Shown in pieces: positions 6,012-47,121 of a DNA stretch of 59,008 nt; the first letter of the stretch is position 1, and each line of letters starts with the position of its first letter. Under the pieces are notes generated by a model. That model saw nothing but the letters and a program-made list of their open reading frames with translations, made no database searches and was not told the origin of the DNA. The translations under genes were made by a program, and so were the position numbers. This DNA comes from Anaerolineaceae bacterium (GTDB lineage: Bacteria > Chloroflexota > Anaerolineae > Anaerolineales > Anaerolineaceae), in the NCBI GenBank assembly GCA_002702705.1, contig PABH01000002.1, forward strand, positions 1 to 59,008, in the 5' to 3' direction.

Positions 6012-6070
6012 AGAAAGTCATTTTATTTTCAGCGAATAGATAGTGTAATTACTACCAAAGGAGTGATCAG

Positions 6071-8068: not shown

Positions 8069-8076
8069 ACAACGCG

Positions 8077-8349: not shown

Positions 8350-8370
8350 CCTCAAAAAACACAACCAACC

Positions 8371-8406: not shown

Positions 8407-8532
8407 AGCTTCAATCACCACCGTCACGCAATTTGGGAAACCCGACCTCGCCATCCTTGCCACTGCACGGTAGTGGATTGACAATTTCATCAGCGCATTG
8501 CAGGCGTTATCGTGCAATCGGGCTACATTCCT

Positions 8533-9327: not shown

Positions 9328-9341
9328 GTGTTTGTCCCTTT

Positions 9342-15568: not shown

Positions 15569-15576
15569 ATTTTTTC

Positions 15577-17148
15577 TCAAATACTGCGTTCATGTTCCCA
15601 GTGCGGATTATCGCTGGCGCGCAGATACCAGTGTAACAAACGTTCTCGAAGGTTGTTACGAACTTCCGACAAGGCTGGGTCGTTAATGCGATTATACAAT
15701 TCCTGCGGGTCATTTTCCAGGTCGTACAGTTCTTCCTTTCCAGCGCTGCGGATGATTAGTTTCCACTCGCGGGTGCGGAGCATGGCGGCGCGCGCCACCG
15801 TGGTGGGGTCATCCTGCTGGAGTTTAAGTTTCTCGAAGTAATGTCCCATCAATGGGTCATCGCCAGATTTAATGCCCGACTCGAAGGCTTGTGGTTCGCG
15901 CGGATCGTAGCCGCCCACCGCGTAGACTGCCTCGCGCTCCGCGGCTCCTTTCATTAAAGAAGTAAGCGACTGCCCAAAATGGGTATAAGGCGTTTGAATA
16001 CCCGCTTGCTCCAACACGGTAGGGAAAAGATCAAGCGATTGGGTGAAGCCATCCACACGCAGACCTGCGTGAGCGTCGGCGGGATATTTGACAATCAACG
16101 GCGCGCGCAGTAAATCATCCTGAAAGCCCGTTGGCCACTTTTCAACCAATCCGTAATCGCCAACATAATCGCCGTGATCGCTCAGGAAGAGAATGAGCGC
16201 ATCGTTGTATAGTCCCTGCGCCTTGAGCGCAGCAACGATACGCCCCACCTGCTCGTCCAGTTTCGTGACCATGCCGTAGTAAGTAGCACGCAGTTCGCGC
16301 AAGTCTTCAGGAGTCAATTGCGCCAGATCGTAGCGCGAATACATTTCGCGCATAAAATGCGGCTTATCGTCCAGCCGTGCAGGTATGGGATCAGCGATAG
16401 TGGCGCGCTCATACATCGAGAAGTACGGCTCTTCCACTTGATACGGTGTGTGTGGCAAGGTAGCGGCAATATAAAGGCAGAAAGGCTGGCGCGGTCCAGA
16501 AGCCAGCCAACTCACGGCGGACTCGAAAATCAGCGGTTCCATCTGCGCGGCTGGGGAGGCGGGTTCCGCCTTTCCGAAGTAAAATGAATGCTGCAGGCGA
16601 TGTCCGCGCGAATAGGGACTGCGCACCGTTGGCAGAATATCCGCGAATTCTTGCAAGCGGTCGTCGCCGAATAAGCCGCTCAACGACTTGCGCTCCACCA
16701 CAAACAAGCGAAATGCCAGCGCGAGCATTTTCGATTTTTTACGCAACTTCAAATGACGCAGACTCTGGCGCATTAATTTTATCTGGACGCTCTGCGGACC
16801 CGACAGCCGACGCCGAAAACTGGCGCGTAGGCTGGGCATGGTCATCAGGTCGTTCTTGCCCGCCATGACGGTCTCGTAGCCGTTCTCTTTCAGAATCCTA
16901 AACAGATTTTCTTCATGCGGGCGCAGCAACTGATACAGCGAGCGATGCCCGTTGACCTGCGGATACAGTCCCGTAAAGTTTGCTATGCGCGAAGGTGCGC
17001 AGACCGGGTTGACGGCGTAGTTTTGGTCGAAGGTCACGCCGTCTTTCCTCAGCGCGGTGAGATGGGGCGTACGGACGATCGGATTCTCCAGCGTGTCAGC
17101 ACGCAGATCGTCGGCGATGATGATGACGATGTTGGGTTTGATAGTCAC
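15577..17148 (-). CDS. Type I sulfatase B (Cys-type), cytosolic
   Basis: A 523-residue sulfatase. IVIIIADDLRAD near the N-terminus provides metal-binding Asp residues, Cys50 in NPVCAPSR is the formylglycine site, and LFLSDHGDYVGDYGLVEKW around residue 305 is the second metal motif. No signal peptide is visible. Start is GTG at 17148 without a strong ribosome binding site. It belongs to a different branch from sulfatase A, so the locus can probably remove at least two kinds of sulfate group. First gene of the block after a terminator-like hairpin. The duplicated copy at 10204-11771 is frameshifted. Confidence 0.93.
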   Translation of the reverse strand: MTIKPNIVIIIADDLRADTLENPIVRTPHLTALRKDGVTFDQNYAVNPVCAPSRIANFTGLYPQVNGHRSLYQLLRPHEENLFRILKENGYETVMAGKNDLMTMPSLRASFRRRLSGPQSVQIKLMRQSLRHLKLRKKSKMLALAFRLFVVERKSLSGLFGDDRLQEFADILPTVRSPYSRGHRLQHSFYFGKAEPASPAAQMEPLIFESAVSWLASGPRQPFCLYIAATLPHTPYQVEEPYFSMYERATIADPIPARLDDKPHFMREMYSRYDLAQLTPEDLRELRATYYGMVTKLDEQVGRIVAALKAQGLYNDALILFLSDHGDYVGDYGLVEKWPTGFQDDLLRAPLIVKYPADAHAGLRVDGFTQSLDLFPTVLEQAGIQTPYTHFGQSLTSLMKGAAEREAVYAVGGYDPREPQAFESGIKSGDDPLMGHYFEKLKLQQDDPTTVARAAMLRTREWKLIIRSAGKEELYDLENDPQELYNRINDPALSEVRNNLRERLLHWYLRASDNPHWEHERSI

Positions 17149-17188
17149 GTTGATATGTTGCTCCCAAGCGAATTAATACTTTCTGAAT

Positions 17189-17230
17189 GAAGCAAAAAGA
17201 ATGCTTCCTCAAGCCCAGCTGCGGCTTGAG
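17189..17230 (-). terminator. Double hairpin between MFS and sulfatase B genes
   Basis: On the minus strand CTCAAGCC/GGCTTGAG (17208-17215 with 17223-17230) is followed by GAAGCA/TGCTTC (17189-17194 with 17202-17207). The pair lies downstream of the MFS gene and upstream of sulfatase B, so it may end or attenuate the importer transcript. Confidence 0.5.
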
Positions 17231-17321
17231 GTTAGTAAACCGGCAAAATTAAAATAACCTTCAAGCGCAACCTGGCAACGCATGCACAGCACTGCAATGC
17301 CCGCAATCTGAACTGACATTC

Positions 17322-18659
17322 CTACTCTACAAGTTCTGCCTTGCGTTTTTGCAGCAGGTCATTCAGCGCCATGCGGTCGCGGTGGTAAAACGGATAAAAA
17401 GCGAACCAGGAGATCACGCTCAACGTGAGTGAAACGGTCACTGCCCAGAAGAACAGGTTGGTGAGCGTAATCTGGTTGCCAACAATGCCGACAATGCCGG
17501 CTATGGCTGCCTGAATCAAGCCGTTGGCAAGGCGGTTGACGGCGTAAGCAGTGCTGCGTTGTTCGGGAGCATTGACGGCGGCAATCATCGGCGCGATGGC
17601 GGCGGGAAATGCCATGTCCATGAACAAGCCAAAAAGCACAGCAAATGCAAAAAAGTTCATCATACCACCAGAAATTTGCTGGAAGAAGAAGTAGCCTAGC
17701 ACAGCCATCATGGTACGCGACCCCTGCAACACGAACAGCCGTCCGAAGCGCGGATTTTTGCGTTCTGCCCAGTCGCCCAGCAGACCGCCGATCAGCGTAC
17801 TGAGCGCCGAACCGATGATAATCCCAGTGAGAACGGTGGTGGCTTGTCCAGGACGGAAGCCGCGTTCATCCACCAGCCAGGTAACGGCAAAGGTCAATAT
17901 GGTAATCTGTACTGGCACGCCGAAAATCTTTTCAAAAATAAGCAGCAGGTTGGTCGGCACGCGAAAGATGGAGGCAACGCTTTGCCAGGAAAAGGCAAAC
18001 TTTTTTTCCGACTTCTGCGCCACGTCATATATGGCTGCTTCCGCGCCGCCGCGCGGTGGTTCGGTCAGGAAGAGGGCAAAGATCAGACCACTCAACATGC
18101 TCAACGCACCGAAGGTAATGAAGCCGATACGCCAGCCCGTTTCGGGAATTTCAGCCATACGCCCAAAAAACAGGATGCTGACAATAACCGCCAGCGTGGA
18201 AATCATGCGCATAATGCCGAAGACCTTGCCGCGATCCTTTTGCGGGAACAGGTCGGTGAGCATTGAGTTCATCGGCGCACCAAGCGCCACCAGCCCAATG
18301 GCGGCAACCACACGCAGAGCCAGCAGCATTTCGTAACTGGCGGAAAACCCAATCAACAGAGTCCACAGGCCCCACAGACCGGAGCCGATGATCAGGATGC
18401 GCTTGCGACTGTAACGGTCTGCGAGAACGCCCCAGATGGGTCCGAAAATTATCTCCATAATTTTACCCAGGCTCGTGATCGTACCGAGGTGGGCGGTTGT
18501 CATGTTCAATGAGGCGCGAATGGCGGGAAACATGGAAGACATTGCCTGGTCTTCTCCCGCGTCCACGACACCGGCGAATGCCAGTGTCACCACATTGCGC
18601 CAACGTCCCTTGACAGCAGGAACATCGGCGGTGGGAAGTTCTTGATTTTGTGCGGTCAT
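17322..18659 (-). CDS. MFS transporter
   Basis: A 445-residue major facilitator protein with about 12 hydrophobic segments. The loop 2-3 signature is GVLADRYSRKRIL around residue 80, and the repeated signature in the second half is GGLLGDWAERKNPRFG. The family moves small solutes with protons or other ions across the inner membrane. Its place between a hydrolase and the sulfatases suggests that it carries a substrate or product of the locus, for example export of freed sulfate or sugar; direction and cargo are not readable. Start ATG at 18659 follows AAAGGAG. Confidence 0.88.
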   Translation of the reverse strand: MTAQNQELPTADVPAVKGRWRNVVTLAFAGVVDAGEDQAMSSMFPAIRASLNMTTAHLGTITSLGKIMEIIFGPIWGVLADRYSRKRILIIGSGLWGLWTLLIGFSASYEMLLALRVVAAIGLVALGAPMNSMLTDLFPQKDRGKVFGIMRMISTLAVIVSILFFGRMAEIPETGWRIGFITFGALSMLSGLIFALFLTEPPRGGAEAAIYDVAQKSEKKFAFSWQSVASIFRVPTNLLLIFEKIFGVPVQITILTFAVTWLVDERGFRPGQATTVLTGIIIGSALSTLIGGLLGDWAERKNPRFGRLFVLQGSRTMMAVLGYFFFQQISGGMMNFFAFAVLFGLFMDMAFPAAIAPMIAAVNAPEQRSTAYAVNRLANGLIQAAIAGIVGIVGNQITLTNLFFWAVTVSLTLSVISWFAFYPFYHRDRMALNDLLQKRKAELVE

Positions 18660-18701
18660 GTCATTCTCCTTTTGTTAAATACTTTAAAAGTTTCAAAACC
18701 T

Positions 18702-19445
18702 TTAGGTTATGGTGGTAAAAAAGTCGGCTACTTTGCGATACACGATTTCACGTTCTTGATCCAACGTGATGATGTGACCGCTTTTTTCGAGCCAAAGCGT
18801 TTCGGGGTGAAGCCTATGTAATTGCCCGGAGATCAAATCCAGCGCGTTCGGTTCGATCACCTTATCGCCGCGCGATTGGATCAATAAAACTGGGATGTTG
18901 ATTTTTGTCAGACTTTCTTGCATTAATTTTGCCAGTTCTGCGGCTTCGGCAATAGCGTGCGGGACAAAATAAGCGTAGGAAGTTTCGGCACGATTACCCA
19001 CTGCAGCGGGTTTTTTGAACTTTGGAACGAACAGGCTGAGGGGCCGCATAAGGTGCACACGCCAATCGCTGGTCAACCCGTAGGGCGTGGATAGCGCTGC
19101 TACACCCTGCACTTGATAACGGTTGGCCGCAATCAAGGTTAGGACTCCGCCCATGGAAATTCCCGCCACATACACTTGATCGCACATGCCGCGTAGCAGG
19201 TTCAAGCCATCTTCAACGGTGGTCAGCCAGTCGCGCCAGGCGGGACGGCGCAGATCATCCACCTGGGTGCCGTGTCCGGGCAGGCGGATGCCGAGAGTTG
19301 TAAAGCCCTGATTTTGATTCAAATATTCTCCCAATCCGCGCATAGCCGCGGGAGAACCAGTGAATCCATGAATGAGCAAAACACCGGTGCGATTACCCGG
19401 GAACAAGAATGGCTCAGCGCCTGGCATGGTTAGGGTTTGATTCAT
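18702..19445 (-). CDS. Alpha/beta hydrolase, carboxylesterase type (paralogue)
   Basis: A 247-residue cytosolic hydrolase. LIHGFTGSPAAMRGLGEYL is the oxyanion region, AGISMGG around residue 93 contains the nucleophile, SRGDKVIEP the Asp and KSGHIITLDQE the His. It is a clear paralogue of the gene at 8533-9327. The gene lies between the DUF2179 remnant and the MFS transporter on the same strand, with short gaps, so it is probably co-transcribed with them. It may de-esterify imported sugars, but no specificity can be read. Confidence 0.86.
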   Translation of the reverse strand: MNQTLTMPGAEPFLFPGNRTGVLLIHGFTGSPAAMRGLGEYLNQNQGFTTLGIRLPGHGTQVDDLRRPAWRDWLTTVEDGLNLLRGMCDQVYVAGISMGGVLTLIAANRYQVQGVAALSTPYGLTSDWRVHLMRPLSLFVPKFKKPAAVGNRAETSYAYFVPHAIAEAAELAKLMQESLTKINIPVLLIQSRGDKVIEPNALDLISGQLHRLHPETLWLEKSGHIITLDQEREIVYRKVADFFTTIT

Positions 19446-19453
19446 TTATTTAC

Positions 19454-19780
19454 CTACCTGTTCTCTTTCAATGATTGAAAGTCTCGACCCAGTACTTCCT
19501 GGGCTGGCACAACAATTACAAAAGCCTGCGGATCTTCGGTGCCAACGATGGCAATCAAATACGCTGCCTCCTATGCAGTCAGCGCTACCAACAACACGTC
19601 TCGGTCTGTCTGCGCGTATATTCCCTGGCCGCACAGAAGAGACCCGTTGCGTTTCACTTCCTGGATAATCTTTTGACTGACTGCCTGCGGGTTGTCCGTT
19701 ACCACCAGAGCTAGAATGGTGTGACTTCTGCGAGATGCTTGACCGTTTTGTTGCGAAGGAGCAGGGTTGGAATCTGTCAC
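19454..19780 (-). pseudogene. DUF2179 (YitT C-terminal-like) protein with in-frame amber codon
   Basis: Residues from VTDNPQAVSQKIIQEVKR through LLCGQGIYAQTDRDVLLVALTA match the DUF2179 domain, which in YitT proteins forms the soluble C-terminal part. A TAG at 19571-19573 follows, and the same frame then continues with EAAYLIAIVGTEDPQAFVIV and EVLGRDF, exactly the rest of the domain. One substitution, probably CAG to TAG, has therefore cut the gene. Start is GTG at 19780, 8 bases after the permease stop, so the gene is the tail of the ABC importer operon. No membrane segments precede the domain, so it was a stand-alone protein of about 108 residues. Function unknown. Confidence 0.8.
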
Positions 19781-33765: not shown

Positions 33766-34979
33766 TGCCTCAAATAAAAATGTTACCGAACGATTTTCCA
33801 TAATAATGCTACTTTTGTATCGATTCGATCACGAAGGGTGACCGGATTCAATTGGACATATTGGTTTGTTAATCTGGCCTTGATCTCCACGGAGATTTCA
33901 TCGAGAGCCATCACTCTACGATAGGGGGTCTTAGCTTGATCATACTTACGGATAGTTTTTCCGTCAACTTTTTCTTTTCCGACCAATTTGAGTACAGGTT
34001 GGAAGAAATTGATATAAAGGCGTAGGTCAGCGTAAATCGAGCGTAACAATGCCAACTCCTCCGCGCTTTCTAATCGGTCATAGCCAACGGTATGTCGGAC
34101 AACGGACCAATTCTTTTGTTCCACATGCGCTTGGTCATTTTTTTGATAAGGACGGGAACGGGTAAAAGTGATCTTCTCTGCAAGACAATACCGATAAAGG
34201 GTGTCGTTGATAAATTCACTGCCATTGTCGGAATCCAGTCCTAATAAAGGAAAAGGTAAATTTTGACGTAACTCAATAATTGCTTGTGAAACCGCAGATT
34301 GGGTCTTATTGGGTAAACCCTGGCATTCTGTCCATCCTGTAGCTAAATCTACACTGGTGAGCGTATTGAGATAAATCCCCTCGACAGTAGTCCCGCAATG
34401 AGCCACTAGATCGATTTCCACGAAACCTGGACGCTCATCTTCCCATGGCGTAAAGGTGCGGACAGGAATTGCTTGTTTGAGCAAACTACCTGGTTTCGTA
34501 GTAGAGATCCCGTGGCGGGGCTGTGTAAATCGTGCTTTTTTCAGGCAGCGGTCAATCGTTGCGCGACTCATGCTCAAGAGTAAGTGCTTTACTTCTGAAG
34601 TTAAACTCAATTCATTACATCGTTCTAAAACCTGTATCCCTTCTGGCAAAAATGGTTGTAATCTTTTTGAACAAATCCGCCCATAAATTTCCCAGACCTG
34701 TTCTAAGACTTGTACCACTTCTCCTTGATAAATTTTTCGACGTCCTACTTTGCCCAATCTTTTTGGTCGAGAAGCATGTTTCAATGCCCGAATGGCGTGT
34801 TTCCGGTGGTAGCCCGTGATTTTAATAAACTCATCTAATATTTGTGTTTTTCCAGCTTTATTGGCTTTCAAATATCGCGGTCGAATTGCTTCTATCATTT
34901 CTTTTTTACTTCCTAAGCTCATCATGTTCTCCCTCCGCGGATCTTTTTTCCGCTTTAGAGTAACATTCTTTTTGAGCCA
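33766..34979 (-). mobile_element. Insertion sequence with integrase-type transposase
   Basis: Imperfect terminal inverted repeats: TGCCTCAAATAAAAATGTTAC at 33766-33786 and the complement of TGGCTCAAAAAGAATGTTAC at 34960-34979. The element is about 1.2 kb and holds a single transposase on the minus strand. A second, nearly identical end lies outside at 33731-33751. I could not see a clear target duplication. Confidence 0.75.
33783..34925 (-). CDS. Integrase-core (rve/DDE) transposase
   Basis: A 380-residue transposase. The N-terminal 130 residues are a helix-turn-helix part (ITGYHRKHAIRALK, then RATIDRCLKKARF). The catalytic core has EIDLVAHCG (first Asp), LLGLDSDNGSEFIND (second Asp) and DQAHVEQKNWSVVRH (Glu), making a full DDE triad in the retroviral-integrase style. 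It resembles the ISNCY or IS481-like proteins rather than IS3 because a single long frame is present. The gene fills the element and looks intact. Confidence 0.88.
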   Translation of the reverse strand: MMSLGSKKEMIEAIRPRYLKANKAGKTQILDEFIKITGYHRKHAIRALKHASRPKRLGKVGRRKIYQGEVVQVLEQVWEIYGRICSKRLQPFLPEGIQVLERCNELSLTSEVKHLLLSMSRATIDRCLKKARFTQPRHGISTTKPGSLLKQAIPVRTFTPWEDERPGFVEIDLVAHCGTTVEGIYLNTLTSVDLATGWTECQGLPNKTQSAVSQAIIELRQNLPFPLLGLDSDNGSEFINDTLYRYCLAEKITFTRSRPYQKNDQAHVEQKNWSVVRHTVGYDRLESAEELALLRSIYADLRLYINFFQPVLKLVGKEKVDGKTIRKYDQAKTPYRRVMALDEISVEIKARLTNQYVQLNPVTLRDRIDTKVALLWKIVR

Positions 34980-35276: not shown

Positions 35277-36207
35277 ATGCAAATCAGATGTACGATAAAC
35301 GGCAGCATCCGACTAACAAGGTTCAAGGAGTATCTGGCTTTTGTAATTGTAACCACCTTTTTGGGTGCTACTGCTGCAAGCAATGGTTCGTTTGGATGGA
35401 AACTAATCGGAGTTCTTTTCGCAAATTGGCTGGCGGTAGCCTTTGCTTTCATGATCAATGACGTTGAAGATGCTGAAGATGACGCATTAACTCCGCATAA
35501 ATGCCAACGGAACCCGGTTGCCGCAGGCGATCTATCCCCCTTTACTGCGCGGTTGATGAGTTTTGGTGTGGCTGTGGGATCCGCACTCGTCTATTCCACT
35601 CTGGGAAAAACAACTTTCTTGTTGGGTATGATCACTCTTTTGATCAGTTTCTTGTATTCTTGGAAACCGGTTCGCCTGAAGAATATCGCTTTTGTTGACT
35701 TTTTCGTATATGGCTTTATGCTTTCCGGGTTACAGTTCCTCACGGGGTATTTTACTTTTGATCCAGCCCCTTTCATGCACTGGATATTTCCCTTTCTTTT
35801 TGTTTTCTGCATCAGTTGTTATGGCGAGATGTTTAATGAAATGCGTGACCTGGACGGCGATTTAAAAGCGGGTCTCAAACATACCGCTGCGGTTTTGGGT
35901 CCCAGGGTTACTGCCAGGTTAATGGGCGCAGTGATGGTTTTGGCGGTAATTTCAGGGATTATAACAGCCTTTGTCATCCGTTTGGTTGGCCTTTTGGGTC
36001 TTATGGCTTGTTCTTGTCCTTTCGCTGATCTTTATCCTCCCTGCGGTCATGCGAATTCGTCGGAACAAGAATGGAATCGCCCTACAGGAGTCCTTTCAAA
36101 AGCCACTTGAATACGCTGCGTCCATTGCCTTGGGCAGCTATTTTACCTGGTCATGGGCAGTTCAGCACGTTCTTCCTTGGTTGGCCGCATTCCGCTTACC
36201 CACTTAA
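35277..36207 (+). pseudogene. UbiA-family prenyltransferase, frameshifted near 3' end
   Basis: A polytopic membrane protein of about 300 residues with eight or so helices. The first Asp-rich motif is MINDVEDAEDD near residue 60 and the second EMFNEMRDLDGDLKAG near residue 195; both bind Mg-diphosphate in UbiA enzymes, which transfer a polyprenyl chain to an acceptor. The main frame ends in a non-membrane tail, while another frame from about 36000 continues with LVLSLIFILPAVM, then AASIALGSYFTWSWAVQHVLPWL, the expected last helices. One frameshift between about 35980 and 36025 explains this. The acceptor is unknown; menaquinone or an archaeal-type ether lipid are options. Confidence 0.75.
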
Positions 36208-36321: not shown

Positions 36322-37032
36322 ATGAAAAAGAAACTTACTCACCGCCAATTACAGTTTTTGAGCCAGTTCCTGGACATCTACCGGGAAATGGAACATTCCG
36401 TGCATTACGTGACGGTTGCCGAACGCCTGGGCATCGGAAAAATTACGGCGTATGAGATGTTGCGCCTGCTGGAAGAAAAGGGGCTTATACGGGCCGAGTA
36501 TCGGGCAAACCCGGATCAACACGGCCCAGGTCGTTCAGCTGTCCTCTTTTTTCCGACCCAGGAAGCCAACCGTTTAATCAACAAATTGGCTGGCAATCCT
36601 GCCGATATCGAAGATTGGCAGGATGTTAAGGAACAAATCTTACAACAGCTACGACATGGAAAAGCTGGCGGTTACGAAGAGTTGCTCTCCAATCTTCTGG
36701 CTCGTATTCCGGAGAGGCGCTCCCCACTCATTTTTGTTACCGAACTGATCACTGCTGTGATCCTAATGTTGACGACGATCCAGGATGCGCCTGAAATTCG
36801 TGCGTTGTTGGAACGTCTGCATCAAATTGGGTTGCCAAAAAAAATCAACTTAAGTGTAATGAGTGGAATCGCAATGTTCCTGTCCGTTATAGAACGTACC
36901 AATCGTCGTTATTCCACAGTCTTGCTTGATCAATTCAGTCGGTATGAGGATGTACTTTCGCAATTGAGTGAGGAAAGCCGGCGACAGTTGGGTGAGTTCA
37001 CGCGGGAAGTAGTCCAAATCCTTTCTAGTTAA
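36322..37032 (+). CDS. HTH regulator of unnamed family, class MKKK
   Basis: A 236-residue paralogue of the gene at 24941. The N-terminal winged-helix region reads MKKKLTHRQLQFLSQFLDIYREM, then TVAERLGIGKITAYEMLRLLEEKGLIRAEYR, with the recognition helix in GKITAYEMLRLLEE. The C-terminal two thirds are helical, including AVILMLTTIQDAPEIRALLERL, and of unknown fold to me. DegV follows by 44 bases and then a long same-strand gene run. The operator in front of its own gene is repeated in front of degV, so autoregulation together with control of the lipid genes is likely. Whether it binds a fatty acid or lipid is open. Confidence 0.85.
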   Translation: MKKKLTHRQLQFLSQFLDIYREMEHSVHYVTVAERLGIGKITAYEMLRLLEEKGLIRAEYRANPDQHGPGRSAVLFFPTQEANRLINKLAGNPADIEDWQDVKEQILQQLRHGKAGGYEELLSNLLARIPERRSPLIFVTELITAVILMLTTIQDAPEIRALLERLHQIGLPKKINLSVMSGIAMFLSVIERTNRRYSTVLLDQFSRYEDVLSQLSEESRRQLGEFTREVVQILSS

Positions 37033-37076: not shown

Positions 37077-37928
37077 ATGACCAAGATCGCGATTTTGACA
37101 GACAGTACAGCAAACCTTCCAATGGAATGGGTTGAGCAATATAACGTTCGAGTGATTCCCCTTAAAATTCATTGGGGGAACGAGACCTTTCTCGACGGCG
37201 TAGGCATCACGCCTAACGAGTTCTATACGCGATTATCTCACAGCAAGTCTCTTCCAACGACGTCGCAACCCTCGATCCAGGATTTTCTTCAGGCTTTCGA
37301 AAGCCTAGCCGATCAAGCGGATGGTATTGTCGTTCCGCTGATTTCGTCTGGTATTAGCGGCACGGTTGCATCGGCTCAGGCTGCTGCGCGCCAGTTTAAT
37401 CGCGTGCCGGTGGAAATTGTGGATACCCGTGTTACGTCGGCCGGGCAGGCGTTGGTTGTAATGGCAGCGGCTCGGGCAGCGGCACAAGGGAAATCGCTTC
37501 AGGATGTACGGCAGGCGGCAGATGGGGTTGTTCAGCGAATGCATTTGTTTTTTGCAGTGGATACATTGGAATATTTACATCGCGGTGGGCGGATAGGCGG
37601 GGCTTCCCGCTATCTGGGAACTGCCTTAAGCATAAAGCCCATCCTATATTTCGACTCGGAAGGAAAGCTTGATGCTCTGGAACGCGTGCGGACTAAAGGT
37701 AAGGCTCTGCAACGATTGATCGCCCTAGCGGAAGAAAAAGCTAACGGGCGTTCTCTCAATTTCAGTGTCATCCATGCCAACGCACCACAGGTTGCTCAAG
37801 AATTTCGCGAGCAAATAGCTCAGCATCTCCATTGCAATGATGTATTCACTCTGGAACTTAGCCCGGTCATCGGTGTCCACGTGGGGCCTGGAACAATTGG
37901 CATTGCCTTTTATACAGAAGAACTATAA
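37077..37928 (+). CDS. DegV-family (FakB-like) fatty-acid-binding protein
   Basis: A 283-residue intact DegV protein. TDSTANLPMEWVEQY at the N-terminus, PTTSQPS near residue 60, ISSGISGT near 90, DTLEYLHRGGRIGGASRYLG near 160 and SPVIGVHVGPGTIG near 270 are the family's ligand-contact blocks. DegV/FakB proteins hold a fatty acid in a closed pocket and, in FakAB systems, present it to a kinase for entry into phospholipid. No FakA kinase is present here. First gene behind the MKKK regulator; start ATG after AGGAG. It is the only intact DegV of three in this window. Confidence 0.93.
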   Translation: MTKIAILTDSTANLPMEWVEQYNVRVIPLKIHWGNETFLDGVGITPNEFYTRLSHSKSLPTTSQPSIQDFLQAFESLADQADGIVVPLISSGISGTVASAQAAARQFNRVPVEIVDTRVTSAGQALVVMAAARAAAQGKSLQDVRQAADGVVQRMHLFFAVDTLEYLHRGGRIGGASRYLGTALSIKPILYFDSEGKLDALERVRTKGKALQRLIALAEEKANGRSLNFSVIHANAPQVAQEFREQIAQHLHCNDVFTLELSPVIGVHVGPGTIGIAFYTEEL

Positions 37929-37945: not shown

Positions 37946-38242
37946 ATGCGAATCTTGTTTGAACGAAGTGTCTTGGCGGGAATGGGTCTCCTCTCAATGA
38001 CTCATGACAAAGCCCAAAAGATCGTAGACGAACTCATCCGACGTGGTGAAGTTCAAAAAGATGAAGCCAAGGATTGGGTTGAAAGTCTGGTTCAACGCGG
38101 GGATGAAGAACGTCAGAATTTGCGTAAACTGATCCATGACGAGGTAAAGAGCACCTTGGATGAATTAGGCCTGGTTACGAAGCAAGACCTACAGGATTTG
38201 GCATCAAAGATAGAAACTCTTGGCAAGCAAGAAAAAGGTTAA
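37946..38242 (+). CDS. Phasin-like small helical protein
   Basis: A 98-residue protein, mainly amphipathic helix. KAQKIVDELIRRGEVQKDEAKDWVESLVQRGDEERQNLRKLI is typical of the phasin-related family annotated as polyhydroxyalkanoate synthesis regulators, in which a short helix-turn-helix precedes a coiled coil (TKQDLQDLASKIETL). The first 25 residues (LFERSVLAGMGLLSMTHDKA) include a membrane-association type segment. Such proteins often lie beside UbiB/ABC1-type kinases. It follows degV by 18 bases. A structural or lipid-surface role is likely; no catalysis. Confidence 0.7.
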   Translation: MRILFERSVLAGMGLLSMTHDKAQKIVDELIRRGEVQKDEAKDWVESLVQRGDEERQNLRKLIHDEVKSTLDELGLVTKQDLQDLASKIETLGKQEKG

Positions 38243-38391: not shown

Positions 38392-38546
38392 TCCTGGGCT
38401 GGGTTTACTTTCGTAAAGAGCATCAAATAAGCCAGCAGAAGATGCGCACAAGCAAACGATCTGCATGGAGGTAGAAAATAGTTACAAATTCACTTACAAA
38501 TGGGTTTTTAATAAATAAAGCTTTCAACGCGGGGCTGGATGTTGCT

Positions 38547-39971
38547 GTGGGAATATCCCCCCTCCTTTCAAAATCAGCATCCTTGCGGTACGGCGTATTA
38601 CAGACAGGAAAATTTGTTTCTTCCCGCATTCGCCCCGTCAACCCGTTATTATCCTCTCTCCCACCTGGTATATTGACTGATCAGACATTGTTCGGAGAGG
38701 CTTTCATAAAAACCTTCGATCGGATACTTGCCCGCAGATTATCTAAGGCAACATTGCGTTCCATTGCTCACAACCTGATTCATGGAGCCCTGGTCCAGGA
38801 AGGTGAAAAATCAGCGATCGCTCGCTTCTCCCAGGAATTTGGGATGTATCCTCCAAGTACGTTGACGATTAGTCCAGGGAAGACTTGCAATTTGCAATGT
38901 GTAGGTTGTTATGCAAGTGCCGGACCTGCCGCAGAAAAGTTGGATTGGACTACTTTTGACCGCATCATCACTGAAGCGAAAACGCTCTGGGGCGTACGGT
39001 TCTTGGTCATCAGCGGCGGAGAACCGCTGGCTTACCGATCAGAAGGAAAGAGCTTGCTAGATGCGGCAGAAAAACATCCGGACATATTATTCATGTTCTA
39101 CACCAATGGAACCTTGATTGATGAAAAAACTGCCCAGCGAATGGCTGCTTTAGGAAATGTGACGCCGGCTATATCAGGCGAAGGTTGGCGCGACCGAATT
39201 GATGAACGGCGCGGATCGGGCGTTTTTGACCAGATTCTGGCAGCCATGGAGCAATTGCGCAAGGCCGGCGTGTTTTTTGGTATTTCCTTGACAGCCACCA
39301 GGCATAATGCCGAAGAAATATTATCAGAAGAGTTCATCGATTACTTTTTTGAACAACAGGGAGCCTTTTATGGTTGGATCTTCCAATACATGCCTATCGG
39401 TCGTTCATATACCCTGGATCTGATGCCGACTCCGGAGCAACGACTTTGGATGTGGAAGCGTTCATGGGAGATCGTCAAAAAACACAAAATTTTCCTGGCT
39501 GACTTCTGGAATCACGGCACCCTCTCCAATGGATGTTTTGCTGGCGGCCATGCGCGTGGCGGAGGTTACTTATATATCGATTGGAACGGTCATGATTCAC
39601 CCTGTGTTTTTGTGCCTTACTCTCCTGTCAATGTCAGGGATATTTATGCACAGGGTGGCACATTGAACGATGTCTGGGCAAATCCCTTCTTTGCAGACAT
39701 CCACGGTTGGCAGGAAAGTTATTGGCAAAGCAAAGGTAACTGGCTGGCGCCGTGTTTGAATCGAGATCACCATGCTGCCTTAAGCCAGTTGATCGCCAGG
39801 CATGAGCCGGAGCCGATTGATGAAAGCGCCCGTACAGCATTGCTTGACTCGGAATACGGGAAAGGGTTGGAACACTACGGCGAGCTATACGAGAACTTAT
39901 CCGAATCGATCTGGCACGAACAATATCTACAAGATCAACGTCAAAAGGAGTTTTATGTCAAGGGATCTTAG
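38547..39971 (+). CDS. Radical SAM enzyme, possibly lipid-modifying
   Basis: A protein of at least 474 residues. The SAM cluster motif CNLQCVGC is at residues 114-121 counted from the GTG, preceded by LTISPGKT; FLVISGGEPLAYRS follows. A C-terminal region holds more Cys residues (SNGCFAG, HDSPCVF, APCLNRDH), suggesting an extra cluster. The GTG at 38547 is the first canonical start, but the frame is open and protein-like upstream to 38478, where ATA stands 6 bases behind a perfect GGAGG (38467-38471); that ATA is probably a mutated ATG. The neighbours (cis-prenyltransferase, patatin, glycosyltransferases) suggest a lipid or isoprenoid substrate; this is inference. The end overlaps the next gene by 17 bases. 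Confidence 0.85.
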   Translation: MGISPLLSKSASLRYGVLQTGKFVSSRIRPVNPLLSSLPPGILTDQTLFGEAFIKTFDRILARRLSKATLRSIAHNLIHGALVQEGEKSAIARFSQEFGMYPPSTLTISPGKTCNLQCVGCYASAGPAAEKLDWTTFDRIITEAKTLWGVRFLVISGGEPLAYRSEGKSLLDAAEKHPDILFMFYTNGTLIDEKTAQRMAALGNVTPAISGEGWRDRIDERRGSGVFDQILAAMEQLRKAGVFFGISLTATRHNAEEILSEEFIDYFFEQQGAFYGWIFQYMPIGRSYTLDLMPTPEQRLWMWKRSWEIVKKHKIFLADFWNHGTLSNGCFAGGHARGGGYLYIDWNGHDSPCVFVPYSPVNVRDIYAQGGTLNDVWANPFFADIHGWQESYWQSKGNWLAPCLNRDHHAALSQLIARHEPEPIDESARTALLDSEYGKGLEHYGELYENLSESIWHEQYLQDQRQKEFYVKGS

Positions 39972-40677
39972 CATTCAGGTAATCCCTCGTCACCTTGCCA
40001 TTATCATGGATGGTAATGGCCGTTGGGCGCAGCAACGTGGACTTCCCCGGATGGCCGGACATCAAGAAGGCGTGCAAACGGTCAAAAGGACACTTGAAGA
40101 TTGTGCTGAAATCGGGGTTAAGATTTTAACTTTATATACTTTCTCCACCGAAAACTGGTACCGCCCAAAAGAAGAGGTTGATTTCTTGATGCGGTTAGCT
40201 GAAGAGTACACGATGCACGAATTGCCCAACTTACAGCATAATGGTGTCTGTCTGCAACTCATGGGGAGCCGGGAAGGGCTACCTGCCTCGCTGTTGGGCA
40301 TTTTGGATAAAGCGACCATGCAAACAAAAGCGAACTCTTGTTTGATCTTGAATCTAGCCCTCAATTACGGAGGACGGGCAGAAATTGTTGACGCCATGAA
40401 AGCAATCATTTCGGATCATCAACAAGGTAATCTGGACGTCTCTAAAATCGATGAAGCCACTTTTTCACATTATCTATACTTCCCTGATATGCCGGATGTT
40501 GATCTGATCGTGCGTACGGGCGGTGAATGGCGCTTGAGCAATTTCCTTCTCTGGCGTGCAGCGAACGCAGTTTTCTGGAGTATGCCTGTTCTTTGGCCGG
40601 ATTTTCGCAAAGAGCATCTCCAAGAAGCGATTTGTATCTATACTAAGCAAATTAGAGGTGGCAATGATAACGCATAA
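39955..40677 (+). CDS. Cis-prenyltransferase (UppS family), key Glu replaced
   Basis: A 240-residue protein matching undecaprenyl diphosphate synthase. HLAIIMDGNGRWAQQRG holds the catalytic Asp19, then GHQEGV, YTFSTENWYRP and RTGGEWRLSNFLLW. In the next block, E. coli UppS has AYAELYF, whose Glu213 binds Mg; here the aligned residue is Val206 in AANAVFWS, and the His of RTGGEHR is Trp. The rest, including LWPDF, is intact. Thus chain elongation may be altered or weak. It catalyses head-to-tail condensation of isopentenyl diphosphate to make lipid carriers in typical members. Start ATG at 39955 follows AAAGGAG and overlaps the radical SAM gene; the longer upstream frame is a shadow. Confidence 0.9.
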   Translation: MSRDLSIQVIPRHLAIIMDGNGRWAQQRGLPRMAGHQEGVQTVKRTLEDCAEIGVKILTLYTFSTENWYRPKEEVDFLMRLAEEYTMHELPNLQHNGVCLQLMGSREGLPASLLGILDKATMQTKANSCLILNLALNYGGRAEIVDAMKAIISDHQQGNLDVSKIDEATFSHYLYFPDMPDVDLIVRTGGEWRLSNFLLWRAANAVFWSMPVLWPDFRKEHLQEAICIYTKQIRGGNDNA

Positions 40678-41590
40678 CAGGCCATCTGTTGGACTGGCAT
40701 TAAGTGGTGGTGGTGCGCGTGGGCTGGCTCATATTGGTGTATTGCGTGTATTGGAACGTGAAGGGATCTCAGTGGATTATTTGGCAGGCACAAGCATGGG
40801 CGGTGTCATCGCAGCGGGTTATGCTGCTGGGATGAGTTCTGATGATCTGGAACGAGAATCATTGGCTATTACACAGAAACGACATATGGTGCGTCTGGCT
40901 GACCGAGGTATGCCAAATGGCGGTTTGATCCGCGGTGAAAGGGTACTCGCTTTCTTTAAAAAAGAATTTGGAGATAAAACTTTCGCAGAATTGAACCTAC
41001 CATTGGCTGTGGTGGCGGTAGATTTGAATTCGCACCAGGAAGTCGTGTTGCGTGAAGGAACAGTGGCATTTGCGCTACGCGCTACCACTTCTCTCCCTGG
41101 ATTGTTCAAACCGGTAGAAATAAACGGTATGCGGCTAGTGGACGGTGGCGTACTCAACAATTTACCCGTCGATGTAGTCAGCCAAATGGGTGCTGAAGTG
41201 ATCATCGCAGTGGATATCGGTTTATCTCATGAAGATGGTATTGGTCAATGGATTGGGAATCATCGCTGGGTTCCAGAGGGGATTGCCAATACGCTGGAAG
41301 TCCTTGATGATACCTTTTATGCCCTGAGAATTGCAGGACAGAGGAACAGATTACATCAATTTGCACCTGATGTGCTGATTTGTCCTGAACTCCCCGCAAA
41401 TGTCAATGCAATCGTAGGCTATGGACGAGTGAAAGAATTAATCACCATTGGCGAGCAGACTGCGGAAGATCATATCGCTGAAATTAAATCACTCATACAA
41501 CCGCACTGGTATTGGCCATTTTCTCACAAGGCCATTGAGATAAAAAAGAAAAATAAACAATTATTCATTTCAAGAACTTTTGAAGGTTAA
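40664..41590 (+). CDS. Patatin-like phospholipase (RssA/YchK type)
   Basis: A 308-residue cytosolic patatin. The oxyanion motif GGGARGLAH near residue 17, the nucleophile in GTSMGG near 44 and the catalytic Asp in VDGGVLNNLP near 161 form the Ser-Asp dyad. Patatins of this size remove acyl chains from phospholipids or other lipids. The start ATG at 40664 overlaps the stop of the cis-prenyltransferase gene, so translation is coupled. In context it could release fatty acids for DegV or remodel the lipid product of this cluster. Confidence 0.92.
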   Translation: MITHNRPSVGLALSGGGARGLAHIGVLRVLEREGISVDYLAGTSMGGVIAAGYAAGMSSDDLERESLAITQKRHMVRLADRGMPNGGLIRGERVLAFFKKEFGDKTFAELNLPLAVVAVDLNSHQEVVLREGTVAFALRATTSLPGLFKPVEINGMRLVDGGVLNNLPVDVVSQMGAEVIIAVDIGLSHEDGIGQWIGNHRWVPEGIANTLEVLDDTFYALRIAGQRNRLHQFAPDVLICPELPANVNAIVGYGRVKELITIGEQTAEDHIAEIKSLIQPHWYWPFSHKAIEIKKKNKQLFISRTFEG

Positions 41591-41597
41591 TGATTTT

Positions 41598-42398
41598 ATG
41601 AAAAGTATCATGATCAGCATTGTTACTTGTACTTTCAATAGTGATAAATATTTGAAAAACGCTTTAAAAAGTATTGAAAGCCAAACTTACCAGCCAATAG
41701 AACACATCATTAATGATTCCTATTCGACAGACTCAACTTTGGAAATCATCCAGGAATATATTAAACGGAATAAAAACCGATACAGAATTAAATTCATTCA
41801 ATCAGAACCGAAAGGAGTCGGAAATGCTCTAAATGTTGCTACAAAAGAAGCAACAGGTGAAATTATCCATTATTTACATTCAGATGATTATTATCTGAAT
41901 CAGGATTCATTGGAAAAAGTAGCGGAAATCTTTAAAAACAGACCAGATCTTGTGTGGCTCACCGGTAATTTCTTAATCGAATTAGCAGGAAGAAAAGTGG
42001 TTATTCCACAAACACATTTACTGCGCATGAATCCAAAAACAGCCCTTTCCTTTATGAATTTCATCTCTCATGAAAATACTTTTATGAAACTAGATTTTGT
42101 TCAGAGGTATGGAGGTTTTAACGAAGCCAAGAATGAGGTTGTAGAATACAGCCTATGGCTAAACATGTTAAAAGACTATTGTCCGCTCATCATTGATGAT
42201 GAGTATACCGTTTTCATCATCCATAAAGGGAGTACTTCAACTGGTAGTTTCCCAAAATTCTTTAAGGCAGTAATGAGAGCATTCCATACCCAAAGAAAAG
42301 AAAAAGTCTTTCCATTAATTGGATACTATGCTGATAAAAGCTTTTATATCCGAACTAAATCAATTCTGAAGAAAGCAGCGAAATACACCACGATTTAA
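41598..42398 (+). CDS. Glycosyltransferase family 2 protein, AT-rich
   Basis: A 266-residue GT-A glycosyltransferase. MISIVTCTFNSDKYLKNALKSI at the start, IIHYLHSDDYY near residue 90 (DxD-like metal site) and ISHENTFMK near 150 are typical of the WcaA/colanic-type family 2 enzymes. There is no membrane segment, so it acts at the cytosolic face on an activated sugar. Its codons are markedly more A/T-rich than those of the flanking genes, which suggests separate acquisition. Start ATG at 41598 is preferred to the TTG at 41580. It starts 7 bases after the patatin stop. Confidence 0.85.
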   Translation: MKSIMISIVTCTFNSDKYLKNALKSIESQTYQPIEHIINDSYSTDSTLEIIQEYIKRNKNRYRIKFIQSEPKGVGNALNVATKEATGEIIHYLHSDDYYLNQDSLEKVAEIFKNRPDLVWLTGNFLIELAGRKVVIPQTHLLRMNPKTALSFMNFISHENTFMKLDFVQRYGGFNEAKNEVVEYSLWLNMLKDYCPLIIDDEYTVFIIHKGSTSTGSFPKFFKAVMRAFHTQRKEKVFPLIGYYADKSFYIRTKSILKKAAKYTTI

Positions 42399-42499
42399 GA
42401 ATTCTCGATCAGTGATTGAAAAGAGATAGAAAAGGAATTTCCCTTGATCACGTCTTTTCATCCCCCAATTTTCCGGGAATATGTTCACGAAAGGTAGTA

Positions 42500-43648
42500 A
42501 TGACTTACTCAAAAACCAAGCAGCCACATGTGCTTTTCCTGTTTTCTGATACAGGAGGAGGTCATCGCAGTGCAGCAGAAGCGATCATCGAAGCGATCGA
42601 TCTTGATTTCCCAAATCAAATTTCAACAGAAATGGTTGATTTTTTCAAAGCATATGCGCCGCCGCCATTCAATCTTGCATCTGATCTGTATCCTCCAATG
42701 GCCAGGGTACCTGATATGTGGGAGTTCGGATATAGGTTGAGTGATGATCCTCAGCGTACTCGAATATTTTATAACTTAATGTGGCCTTATATCCGGCGAG
42801 CAATCTACAGGTTACTTAACGATCATCCATACGATCTGCTGGTCACGGTACATCCCGTCCCAGTGTTTCCAGTCAGCCGAGCATTGAAGCCAGGTTTTCC
42901 ACCATTTATCACTGTCGTTACCGATATGGTTTCGACGCATACCTGGTGGTTTAACCAACGTTCTGATCTAATCTTTGTACCCACTGAAATCGCGAGGCAT
43001 AGAGGAATAGCTAATGGGCTCAAACCCGATCAAATTCGCGTAGTTGGACTACCTGTTGCCCAGCGCTTTTGCATGCCCTCGGAAAGTGGTCAATACTTCC
43101 GCGCCCAAATGGGTTGGCCGCAAGAGCTGCCAGTGATCTTACTCATTGGGGGTGGAGATGGAATGGGGCCTCTTGCCAAGGTGGCACGAGCGATCTCCGC
43201 TGCCCACCTCAACGCAACCATGGTGGTGGTGACCGGTCGCAACCATAAGCTCAAGGCACAACTTGAAGCTGAAGAATGGTCGATGCCCACCTTTATTTAT
43301 GGATTTGTGCGCGAGATGCCCGATTTTATGCGCAGTGCGGACATTCTATTGACCAAAGCAGGACCTGGCACCATCAGCGAAGCCTTTATCGCCGGCCTGC
43401 CGATGATCCTTTACAGTCACATGCCAAGACAGGAAGATGGCAACGTGTCGTATGTAGTCACTGAGGGTGCTGGTGTTTGGGCACCCGAGCCCACCCGCAT
43501 CATTGAGGTATTAAGAAACTGGCTTGATCATCCCGATGAGCGTGAAAAGGTTGCTGCCTACGGCCACCGCCTTGCCAGACCTGATGCTTCCCACCTGGTC
43601 GCATGTGCCATTGCGGATCAACTGGGCGTGACTGAAAGAATAATTTAA
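42500..43648 (+). CDS. MGDG-synthase-like glycosyltransferase (GT28, UgtP type)
   Basis: A 382-residue GT-B glycosyltransferase. The N-terminal domain starts with VLFLFSDTGGGHRSAAEAI, the signature of monogalactosyldiacylglycerol synthase and UgtP-type enzymes; the C-terminal nucleotide-sugar domain has LLIGGGDGMGPL and the GT28 motif TKAGPGTISEAFIAGLPMIL. These proteins add sugars to diacylglycerol at the membrane inner face. It strongly supports a glycolipid function for the cluster. The ATG at 42500 follows AAGG; the long frame upstream is not part of the family. Confidence 0.92.
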   Translation: MTYSKTKQPHVLFLFSDTGGGHRSAAEAIIEAIDLDFPNQISTEMVDFFKAYAPPPFNLASDLYPPMARVPDMWEFGYRLSDDPQRTRIFYNLMWPYIRRAIYRLLNDHPYDLLVTVHPVPVFPVSRALKPGFPPFITVVTDMVSTHTWWFNQRSDLIFVPTEIARHRGIANGLKPDQIRVVGLPVAQRFCMPSESGQYFRAQMGWPQELPVILLIGGGDGMGPLAKVARAISAAHLNATMVVVTGRNHKLKAQLEAEEWSMPTFIYGFVREMPDFMRSADILLTKAGPGTISEAFIAGLPMILYSHMPRQEDGNVSYVVTEGAGVWAPEPTRIIEVLRNWLDHPDEREKVAAYGHRLARPDASHLVACAIADQLGVTERII

Positions 43649-43661
43649 AGGATATTGGTAT

Positions 43662-44534
43662 ATGAAAACAAACAAATATTCGCATCGAACGTCGCTGCAA
43701 GGTCGAAATAACCCATGCTTAACCGTCATCATTCCTACGTTAAATGAAATTGCGTATCTACCCGGATTGTTTGATACTCTGGACGTGCAAACTCGTCTTC
43801 CGGATGAAGTCATCGTAGCGGATGCTGGTTCGACGGACGGCACAGCAGAACTGGCGCGAACACGTGGCGCGCGAGTAGTACGCGGTGGAATGCCAGCAAT
43901 TGGGCGCAACGCGGGAGCTCATGCAGCTGGGGGAAATCTCCTACTCTTCCTCGATGCCGATGTGCTGCCGCCGTCCGATTTCATTGCACGTGTTTTGGAA
44001 GAATTTGAACGTAAAGAATATGATGTCGCCACATGCTTCATTGCAGCATTAGACGAAAACCCACTGGATCGGATGATTTGCGTGGGTACAAACCTGTATT
44101 TCCGGATCATCCAACCGGTTTCCCCGCACGCCCCCGGCTTTTGCATTTTATCAAAGCGCATCGTCCACGAAAAGATGGGGGGGTTCGATGAATCGCTTGC
44201 GCTCAGCGAGGATATTGACTATGCTCGCCGTGCAAAACGGTATGGAAAGTTCGGAATAATGACAAGTGCCCGCATTCCGGTCTCAATGCGGCGGGTAGGG
44301 AAAGAGGGTCTTATGGGGCTTGGTCTAAAATACGCCTGGTGCGAGATACATGCACTGGTGGGAAAACCGGTACGTGAAGCTCCTTTTGAATATGAGTTCG
44401 GAACATTCAGCCCGCTCCAAGCATCTACCAGTCGAGCATTAATTAATAAAGATGCCATATACCGACAATGGAAGAAATTTTGGTATCCGCTGCAAAGATT
44501 CAGCCACAATATTCGTGATCAATTCAACCACTGA
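43662..44534 (+). CDS. Glycosyltransferase family 2 protein
   Basis: A 290-residue GT-A enzyme. LTVIIPTLNEIAYLPGLFDTL at the start, DEVIVADAGSTDGTAELA, GRNAGAHAAGGNLLLFLDADVLPP (DxD at DAD) and GGFDESLALSEDIDYARRAKRYG are the classic family 2 blocks. There is no hydrophobic anchor. It begins 13 bases after the GT28 gene and probably extends the same glycolipid headgroup or a polyprenyl-linked sugar. G+C content resembles the GT28 gene, unlike the AT-rich family 2 gene upstream. Confidence 0.9.
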   Translation: MKTNKYSHRTSLQGRNNPCLTVIIPTLNEIAYLPGLFDTLDVQTRLPDEVIVADAGSTDGTAELARTRGARVVRGGMPAIGRNAGAHAAGGNLLLFLDADVLPPSDFIARVLEEFERKEYDVATCFIAALDENPLDRMICVGTNLYFRIIQPVSPHAPGFCILSKRIVHEKMGGFDESLALSEDIDYARRAKRYGKFGIMTSARIPVSMRRVGKEGLMGLGLKYAWCEIHALVGKPVREAPFEYEFGTFSPLQASTSRALINKDAIYRQWKKFWYPLQRFSHNIRDQFNH

Positions 44535-45620: not shown

Positions 45621-45873
45621 ATGAAAAACATTGTAATAATTACGGATACAGATAGCAGCTTGCCCATTGATTTAACAGCACGATATGAAATCCGCCAAGT
45701 GCCCATTAACTTGCATATCGATGGTGAAACTTATGAAACGGGAGTGGACATAGATGACCACCTTTTATTTGAAAAGCTGGAAAAGTTTAACAAATATCCA
45801 ACAACATCAGCTCCTTCTCCAGAAGCCTTTGCCAAAGCGTTTAGGGCGTCAATTTCCGAGGGTGCCCAATCCA
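45621..45873 (+). pseudogene. DegV-family protein truncated by ISAs1-type element
   Basis: The N-terminal 84 codons of a DegV protein: IVIITDTDSSLPIDLTARY, then PTTSAPSPEAFAKAF and ISEGAQ. The coding sequence runs straight into the left inverted repeat of the insertion sequence at 45874. No degV continuation is found to the right of the element, so about 200 codons are lost. The ribosome binding site GAAGGAGA and the start are intact. Third DegV in the window, paired with MBL-fold copy 2. Confidence 0.9.
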
Positions 45874-47121
45874 CAGGGCAAACGCATCTAAATTAAAGTA
45901 GACAGGAAAGGACAGATGAATTATCCTCTTAGAAAAGAAAAATAAGAGGAAAAAATGGCAGACCAGATATCAGCAGGGATAGAAAAACATTTTGGCAACA
46001 TAGAAGATCCACGAATAGAACGAACAAAGTTACATAAATTGGTAGATATATTGGTAATAGCGATTTGTGCGGTCATTGCGGGAGCAGATAATTGGGAAGA
46101 TATTGAAGAATTTGGCAAAGCGCGAATAGAATGGTTTCAGACCATCTTGGAAATACCCAATGGAATACCATCCCATGATACATTTAATCGGTTATTTGCA
46201 CGCCTTGAGCCTGAACAATTCCAAAATAGTTTTATCAGTTGGATGAAGAGTGCAAGCGAACTAATTGGAGGGCAGGTCATAGCAATCGACGGGAAAGTAG
46301 TGCGTCGATCACATGATAATGGGATCGGAAAATCAGCTATTGATATGGTGAGTGCATGGGCAACGGCGAATCAGTTGGTATTAGGCCAGGTGAAAGTAGA
46401 CGAGAAATCGAATGAGATAACGGCTATTCCTGTTCTACTAGATGCATTGGAGATTGCAGGGTGCATTATCACGATCGATGCCATGGGTTGTCAGACTGAA
46501 ATTGCAAAAAAGATAGTAGATCGCAAGGGGGAGTATGGGCTGGCTTTGAAGGGAAACCAAGGAAATTTACGCGAAGATGTTGAACTTTTATTTAATGATC
46601 TAGAAAAAAGCCAATATAAAAACTTTTCATTCGACTATGAAAAAACGGTTGATAAAAATCATGGTCGGATTGAAATACGTGAATGTTGGGCAATCTCAGA
46701 CCGGGAAATTTTACGTCATTTACGAGGATTCGATAATTGGGAGAAATTGGAGACCGTTTCACTCATCCGCTCAGAGCGAAGGATAGGAGATGAAACCAGT
46801 GTCGAGGATCGCTTTTATATAACCAGTTTTACAGGTGCATCAAAAATATTAGGTGCGATTCGGTCACATTGGGGTATTGAAAATCAGTTGCATTGGGTTT
46901 TAGATATTGCTTTTGACGAAGATCACTCCAGAATTCGTAAGGATTATGGCTCTGACAACTTTGCGGTGTTGAGGCATATCGCTCTAAATTTACTCAAGCA
47001 GGAGAAAACCTGTAAACGTGGCATGAAAGGCAAACGACTTTTGGCTGGTTGGAACCATGATTATCTTATAACTGTTCTGTTAGGTTTGAATCAGGTGGCT
47101 AATTAAGATGCGTTTGCCCTG
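45874..47121 (+). mobile_element. ISAs1-family insertion sequence, complete
   Basis: Ends are CAGGGCAAACGCATCT at 45874-45889 and its inverted counterpart AGATGCGTTTGCCCTG at 47106-47121; total 1248 bp with one transposase. Flanking bases on the two sides do not match, so no target duplication is visible, and the interrupted degV gene does not resume on the right. This implies a deletion or rearrangement next to the element after insertion. Confidence 0.92.
45955..47106 (+). CDS. ISAs1-family transposase
   Basis: A 383-residue DDE transposase. The N-terminal IEDPRIERTKLHKLVDILVI and GADNWEDIEEFGKARIEW are diagnostic of the ISAs1 group; IAIDGKVVRRSHDN gives the first catalytic Asp, ITIDAMGCQTEIAKKI the second, and GIENQLHWVLDIAFDEDHSRIR the Glu region. 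The frame is intact and fills the element between the inverted repeats, so the element may still be mobile. Confidence 0.95.
   Translation: MADQISAGIEKHFGNIEDPRIERTKLHKLVDILVIAICAVIAGADNWEDIEEFGKARIEWFQTILEIPNGIPSHDTFNRLFARLEPEQFQNSFISWMKSASELIGGQVIAIDGKVVRRSHDNGIGKSAIDMVSAWATANQLVLGQVKVDEKSNEITAIPVLLDALEIAGCIITIDAMGCQTEIAKKIVDRKGEYGLALKGNQGNLREDVELLFNDLEKSQYKNFSFDYEKTVDKNHGRIEIRECWAISDREILRHLRGFDNWEKLETVSLIRSERRIGDETSVEDRFYITSFTGASKILGAIRSHWGIENQLHWVLDIAFDEDHSRIRKDYGSDNFAVLRHIALNLLKQEKTCKRGMKGKRLLAGWNHDYLITVLLGLNQVAN

Follow-up and report, generated by a model that had tools for sequence, protein, structure and literature searches.

Cis-prenyltransferases (cis-PTs) include ordinary homodimers, in which the tail of each subunit crosses the interface and completes the diphosphate and Mg site of the other, and in the crystal of the E. 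coli enzyme UppS, Glu213 and His199 reportedly bind Mg. Bacterial enzymes are counted among the homodimeric cis-PTs in a review of the family (PMC7839719), and heteromeric cis-PTs have been described in eukaryotes and in Methanosarcina mazei (PMC8131916). In the complex of DHDDS with NgBR, the RxG tail of NgBR is described as crossing the interface and building both substrate sites of DHDDS, NgBR itself being unable to bind FPP or IPP; the βE-βF linker of DHDDS contributes to this interface, its residues R205, R211 and S213 hold the acceptor phosphate, and its homodimers are reported to work about 400-fold more slowly than the heteromer (PMC7573591). The account of the ternary complex of the M. 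tuberculosis decaprenyl synthase has Mg held by Asp76, by the phosphates of both substrates and by two waters, through which the RxG arginine acts, and names no Glu as a ligand (PMC6450523). In M. mazei MM_0618/MM_1083, two different cis-PT chains work together (PMC8131916), a prokaryotic, though archaeal, precedent that we liken to the present case by its description. Titles and abstract openings of the open-access literature yielded no bacterial heteromeric cis-PT.

The window analysed here, a stretch of 59,008 nucleotides from an Anaerolineaceae bacterium (contig PABH01000002.1 of assembly GCA_002702705.1), encodes a variant cis-PT, P0001, within a cluster of closely spaced genes (Table 1). 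Its open reading frame is real, and its start is supported by the motif AAAGGAG, which ends four bases before the ATG at 39955, and by the orthologous frames of loci L038 and L184, which have the same start codon. The protein contains the whole PF01255 domain (263 bits against a Pfam cut-off of 27) and scores 262 bits with the NCBIfam model TIGR00055 (cut-off 109.55) and 300.7 with NF011405, marginally under the cut-off of 304. The AlphaFold monomer model shows the full fold with a mean pLDDT of 91.3 and low confidence at residues 237-240; Foldseek aligned it with Bacillus subtilis UppS (7jlm) at TM 0.92 and with human DHDDS at TM 0.90, and the TM against E. coli UppS (1x07) was likewise 0.90. 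The chain ends at residue 240, and the DHDDS-like helix-turn-helix extension, used for tetramers, is absent.

Table 1. Coordinates of the variant cis-PT and of neighbouring features in the window
Feature	Coordinates	Strand	Remarks
UbiA-family prenyltransferase	35277..36110	+	Pfam PF01040, 102 bits; operon membership unsure
HTH protein	36322..37032	+	TrmB-like, below cut-off; synteny conserved
DegV-family fatty-acid-binding protein	37077..37928	+	FakB-like, below that model's cut-off; synteny
Phasin-like small protein	37946..38242	+	
Radical SAM protein	38547..39971	+	Pfam PF04055, 79.5 bits; overlaps cis-PT start by 17 bases
Shine-Dalgarno-like AAAGGAG upstream of cis-PT start	39944..39950	+	Sequence read
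Variant cis-prenyltransferase P0001	39955..40677	+	240 aa; V206 at Glu213 column, no in-register RxG tail
Patatin-like lipase	40664..41590	+	Pfam PF01734, 127 bits; ATG 40664 overlaps cis-PT end by 14 bases
Family 2 glycosyltransferase	41580..42398	+	
MGDG-synthase/GT28-like glycosyltransferase	42416..43648	+	
Family 2 glycosyltransferase	43662..44534	+	Best NCBIfam match TIGR04283, below cut-off

The original prediction had placed Val206 where E. coli UppS carries its Glu, Trp where it carries His, and had regarded the catalytic Asp19 as retained. Between the RTGGE and WPDF motifs P0001 aligns without a gap with E. coli ispU (L150, NC_000913), whose numbering is used for all alignment columns (P0001 being row L002), and this alignment bears out the position of Val206 at Glu213 and puts Trp192 at His199; Asp19 is equivalent to Asp26 of E. 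coli and is indeed kept in all orthologues. The comparison covered 169 distinct cis-PT sequences, deduplicated on their last 180 residues, of which 14 are orthologues of P0001 and 155 are others, the latter biased to UppS-like proteins because P0001 or its alignment served as the search query. Column 213 holds Val in 12 and Ile in two of the 14 orthologues and Glu in none, and the 155 others have Glu in 154 cases and Asp in one, so that the alignment proposed with the prediction finds the hydrophobic residue at every locus of the same cluster type. The exchange of His for Trp is real but uninformative, since column 199 varies freely: among the others it is M in 60, L in 23, Y and Q in 19 each, I and H in 10 each, with rarer letters in the rest, and among the orthologues it is W in nine, K in two, and R, L and Y in one each. 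Trp at this column was therefore rejected as a signal. As for a substitute carboxylate elsewhere in the protein, no Asp or Glu stands at the clade-characteristic positions.

The change at column 213 is part of a larger loss. Fifty columns were near-invariant, defined as at least 95% conserved in the 154 others that remain when E. coli is excluded from the count, and five of them are lost in the orthologues in the sense that the majority residue is found in at most two of the 14: Gln208, Tyr211, Glu213, Arg239 and Gly244. All five belong to the ten near-invariant columns from 208 onward. None of the 40 upstream columns is lost; 36 are kept in every orthologue and columns 24, 25 and 195 in 12 or 13 of them, while at column 193 six orthologues keep the majority Ile and the rest have Val, Leu or Met. 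The chance of all five losses falling from 208 on would be about 1e-4 if sites were independent, which they are not fully, so that this figure serves as a guide only. Tyr211, Glu213 and Arg239 are each missing throughout the orthologues, Gln208 in 12 of them. A C-terminal [RK]xG is present in 154 of the 155 others (145 RxG and nine RKFG); no orthologue has Arg-x-Gly in register, and the glycine is missing in 12 and kept in two. The 14 tails have little in common except Gln at column 239. Five have Arg at column 241, four of these with an RGG that lies a residue ahead of the register. The two longest tails (G281 and G298) end in RIFGANHKQN and are those with the glycine column kept. To judge from the letters, these tails with Arg at column 241 or RIFG might partly replace RxG, a point against the heterodimer proposed below. 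As a shifted RxG the RGG is doubtful: it is absent from 10 of the 14 orthologues, and in the window its codons lie on AGAGGTGG, the Shine-Dalgarno-like stretch upstream of the patatin gene as read from the sequence. Columns 208-213 are residues 201-206 of P0001; in the model they fall in the linker that joins strands 184-187 and 206-209, or at its end, and this linker corresponds to the βE-βF linker of DHDDS. As far as the alignment tells, the loss is concentrated in this linker and in the RxG tail, which reaches into the partner subunit.

The catalytic half presents another picture. Residues D26, N28, R30, H43, S71, N74, W75, R77, R194, R200 and S202 are kept in all 14 orthologues, the tabulated residues of the allylic site (S1) are unchanged, and 15 pairs drawn from six orthologues, out of nine sequences entered, gave dN/dS values of 0.13-0.25 at dS of 0.15-1.04. 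The gene is under purifying selection. A degraded pseudogene was rejected on account of these ratios and the kept catalytic residues, and a loss of activity, which the original prediction had offered as one outcome, is unlikely for the same two reasons. A different allylic substrate, offered as another, gains nothing from the tabulated S1 residues, the change being one of the dimer-linker and tail module. R194, R200 and S202 correspond to DHDDS R205, R211 and S213, and because they are kept in every orthologue a diphosphate acceptor would still be expected, presumptively IPP.

These features can be set beside those of the two-subunit eukaryotic enzyme. Asp76, which holds Mg in the M. tuberculosis decaprenyl synthase, is equivalent to Asp19 of P0001. 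DHDDS has Cys at column 213 and no RxG of its own, and NgBR has Glu at this column and an RLG end, so that the chain that gives the tail is the one that combines Glu213 with RxG. Read off the alignment, NgBR has neither the Tyr of column 211 nor the Arg of column 239, and the comparison with the eukaryotic enzyme therefore holds for Glu213 and RxG only. The notion of a Mg-binding Glu is not supported, as no Glu is named as a ligand in the M. tuberculosis complex and DHDDS, which is active in its complex, has Cys there. That NgBR keeps the Glu without substrate binding and DHDDS is active without it points to a donor-side role of Glu213, a residue on which titles and abstract openings returned nothing for UppS. 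The losses in P0001 appear, on this comparison, to sit on the dimer or donor side, away from the metal.

The reading that we favour, tentatively and at somewhat less than an even chance, is that P0001 is a catalytic subunit without tail donation which pairs with UppS, as the donor, in a heterodimer. P0001 would keep its catalytic half and would no longer lend an RxG tail to its partner, and it might function only in combination with another protein; the tail, Arg239, Gln208, Tyr211 and Glu213 would have been lost together while the catalytic residues stayed. The housekeeping UppS, with its intact Glu and RRYG, would take the part that NgBR plays for DHDDS and provide the tail in trans, and the product of the mixed enzyme would be a polyprenyl diphosphate. 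This product would be used by the proteins of the neighbouring genes (radical SAM, patatin, DegV and glycosyltransferase), by which a lipid or glycolipid would be built or modified. We infer both the heterodimer and the use of its product from the comparisons given here. Like human DHDDS, the variant is without Glu213 and without an RxG of its own and has a complete active site; it differs in lacking the C-terminal extension, and the proposed donor is an active UppS with which pairing is conjectured, whereas NgBR is a dead subunit. A single eukaryotic precedent cannot prove a rule.

A candidate tail donor is present in the window's genome (G000). This canonical UppS (contig C44, 100717-101367) keeps the Glu and an RRYG tail, lies by eye in the order frr-uppS-cdsA-like and is the sole other PF01255 match in the assembled genome; the absence of a canonical second uppS, named as a case against the original prediction, is thus not what the genome shows. 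A second cis-PT match was found in all 14 carrier genomes, and the sequences read in nine of these all have Glu213 and RxG. Against the pairing of P0001 with UppS stands the location of uppS on a different contig and in a different gene order. No sign of co-adaptation was seen either: genome G001 has the variant only as a degraded remnant beside the radical SAM gene, and its UppS is nearly identical to that of the carriers G004 and G006.

The variant was found in nine of 147 genomes of the family, in 13 of 400 drawn from the order (with a gap in score from 335 to 279 bits) and in one of 400 drawn from the phylum, the window's own (next match 283 bits); the 14 carriers are the 13 of the order draw and G013, which is in the family set and outside the order draw. 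In a contig scan of genomes, the best 80 of 591 matches included none above 51% identity. A tree made with a quick method from 91 of the 169 sequences (the 14 variants, 11 UppS of relatives, E. coli and, from the remaining 143, a set of 65 that omits L137 and L138 among others) groups all variants together (100), outside the phylum's UppS, which form a clade of their own (98). The latter clade includes a named Chloroflexota record, so that the phylum is probably Chloroflexota. On this tree a recent duplication of the local UppS was rejected. In relation to homodimeric UppS such as those of B. subtilis and E. coli, the variant thus shares fold and catalytic residues and differs by the absence of Gln208, Tyr211, Glu213, Arg239 and the RxG glycine and by its separate clade.

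Several observations concern the make-up of the contig and of related ones. The cis-PT genes of G000 and G004/G006 differ by dS of 0.15-0.27, as against 1.7 or saturation for canonical uppS, and this lower divergence suggests that the cluster was exchanged horizontally or that bins are mixed. Contig C46 of G000 (L198) and contig C2 of G067 (L199), from another genus, share about 19 kb at 99.95% (12.4 kb) and 99.0% (6.5 kb) identity, so that the window's genome bin is probably a mixture of organisms or has taken part in very recent transfers. Window positions 5515-9393 and 12934-19500 are 97-98% identical to contig C18 of G004, whereas for the larger part of 46-59 kb a search of nine genomes brought no close match, which gives the contig the look of a mosaic. 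The contig end (58923-59008) is 96-98% identical to several contig ends of G001 and is probably a repeated element that breaks assemblies. By eye, the stretch 45621-47106 holds a short DegV-like frame that directly precedes a transposase-like gene, and a further transposase-like gene lies at 33783-34925. The variant copies of G152 and G261 are on short contigs of 7.7 and 3.3 kb.

The neighbours of the variant are largely constant. The radical SAM gene or its end is next upstream in 13 of the 14 loci (in G281 as a match of only 27 residues, E 4e-4), with gaps of some hundred bases to the cis-PT gene in G281, G298 and G311; in G237 no radical SAM fragment was found upstream within the approximately 0.4 kb to the contig end. 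The patatin gene lies downstream at all 14 loci, running into the contig end in G003, G261 and G311, with one extra gene between in G024, G281 and G298. In the window the cis-PT gene is overlapped by its neighbours on both sides, and DegV, HTH and glycosyltransferase genes recur at orthologous loci. The specialised role beside a radical SAM gene that had been proposed for the variant is supported by this constancy together with that of Val or Ile at column 213. An exclusive pairing of radical SAM and cis-PT was rejected: the radical SAM family occurs at E 1e-90 in 37 of the 400 order genomes, and loci L198, L199 and L204 combine its gene with patatin and DegV genes and have no cis-PT. These paralogue loci, of which L198 also holds a CMAS-type (cyclopropane-synthase-like) enzyme, point by their gene content to acyl-lipid chemistry. 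Nothing on this gene cluster was found in titles and abstract openings of the literature.

The radical SAM protein is invariant at CNLxCxGCYA and at the later C330, C353 and C403 in nine rows of its alignment, and these conserved Cys suggest a SPASM-like end. Its model is poor (pLDDT 64.5), with fold matches that say radical SAM enzyme and no more. Similarity to the orthologues extends upstream to 38481, and the first ATG, GTG or TTG of the frame is the GTG at 38547, inside the conserved protein; the ATG start of the orthologues corresponds in the window to an ATA at 38478-38480, which follows a GGAGGT. The UbiA-like gene seems to shift frame near its 3' end relative to a 309-residue orthologue in L036. 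In G237 (L185:484-5400), ABC1-type kinase and aminotransferase-I-type genes lie near the variant cis-PT, and a frame similar to one of that neighbourhood was seen by eye in L136.

Alternatively, P0001 might be a homodimer with a relaxed or different acceptor (an alcohol, glycerol or a sugar lipid) that makes an O-prenylated lipid, the missing tail arginine being the cause; we regard this as unlikely, if the strongest of the competitors. M. mazei MM_0014, which ends in TLGG in place of RxG, O-prenylates small alcohols, and its authors suggest that the missing arginine could explain this, while holding alcohol prenylation to be unlikely physiologically (PMC8131916). The glycosyltransferase, patatin and MGDG-type neighbours would suit such a product. 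Against this, R194, R200 and S202, with their role in holding the acceptor diphosphate, are retained in every orthologue, and MM_0014, although it shares the absence of the arginine, keeps Asp at the Glu213 column and its TLGG end, neither of which the variant has. A homologue of MM_0014 in L137 is 30% identical to P0001. This frame (L137:3345-3986, contig C9 of G005) is, in a bacterial bin, a close homologue of the archaeal protein, with TLGG and Asp213.

Less probable again, in our estimation, is an ordinary homodimeric polyprenyl diphosphate synthase whose tail has drifted, perhaps slower or of another chain length, that makes a dedicated carrier lipid. The full fold, the TIGR00055 score and the tabulated catalytic residues would agree with it, as would Thr or Val in 13 of the 14 orthologues at the column of Ala69, a position which we take to affect chain length. 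There is also a precedent in the uppS2 of C. difficile, a second, non-housekeeping UppS in a dedicated locus for a cell-wall polymer (PMC4973711, PMC12548448), though likened here by description and, according to the cited paper, only 25% identical to B. subtilis UppS. The loss, however, is not scattered as drift would have it: it is concentrated in a single module, and no orthologue retains the usual residue at columns 213 and 239. A catalytically dead regulatory subunit that damps UppS, for instance, through pairing is improbable, for although near-invariant residues are lost and a partner would be available, the tabulated catalytic residues including Asp26 and the low dN/dS speak against it, and NgBR, a genuine non-catalytic subunit, is described as having lost FPP and IPP binding (PMC7573591).

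If P0001 does receive its tail from UppS, a wider proposal would be a bacterial heteromeric cis-PT in which a paralogue of a lipid pathway, having given up its tail-donor half, recruits the essential UppS, an independent counterpart of DHDDS/NgBR; we consider this conceivable rather than likely. One asymmetric dimer would then connect the synthesis of the cell-wall carrier with a lipid pathway distinct from it. This proposal also predicts that Glu213 serves tail donation and is not a metal ligand. The homodimers of the UppS kind and the heteromeric DHDDS/NgBR form one family, and the variant clade resembles a natural half-step from one to the other, with the receiver function kept, the donor function lost and a full enzyme still present as donor. 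It would offer a simple bacterial system in which donor-side residues could be sorted from receiver-side residues, and it hints that the function of a residue described as Mg-binding may be a different one.
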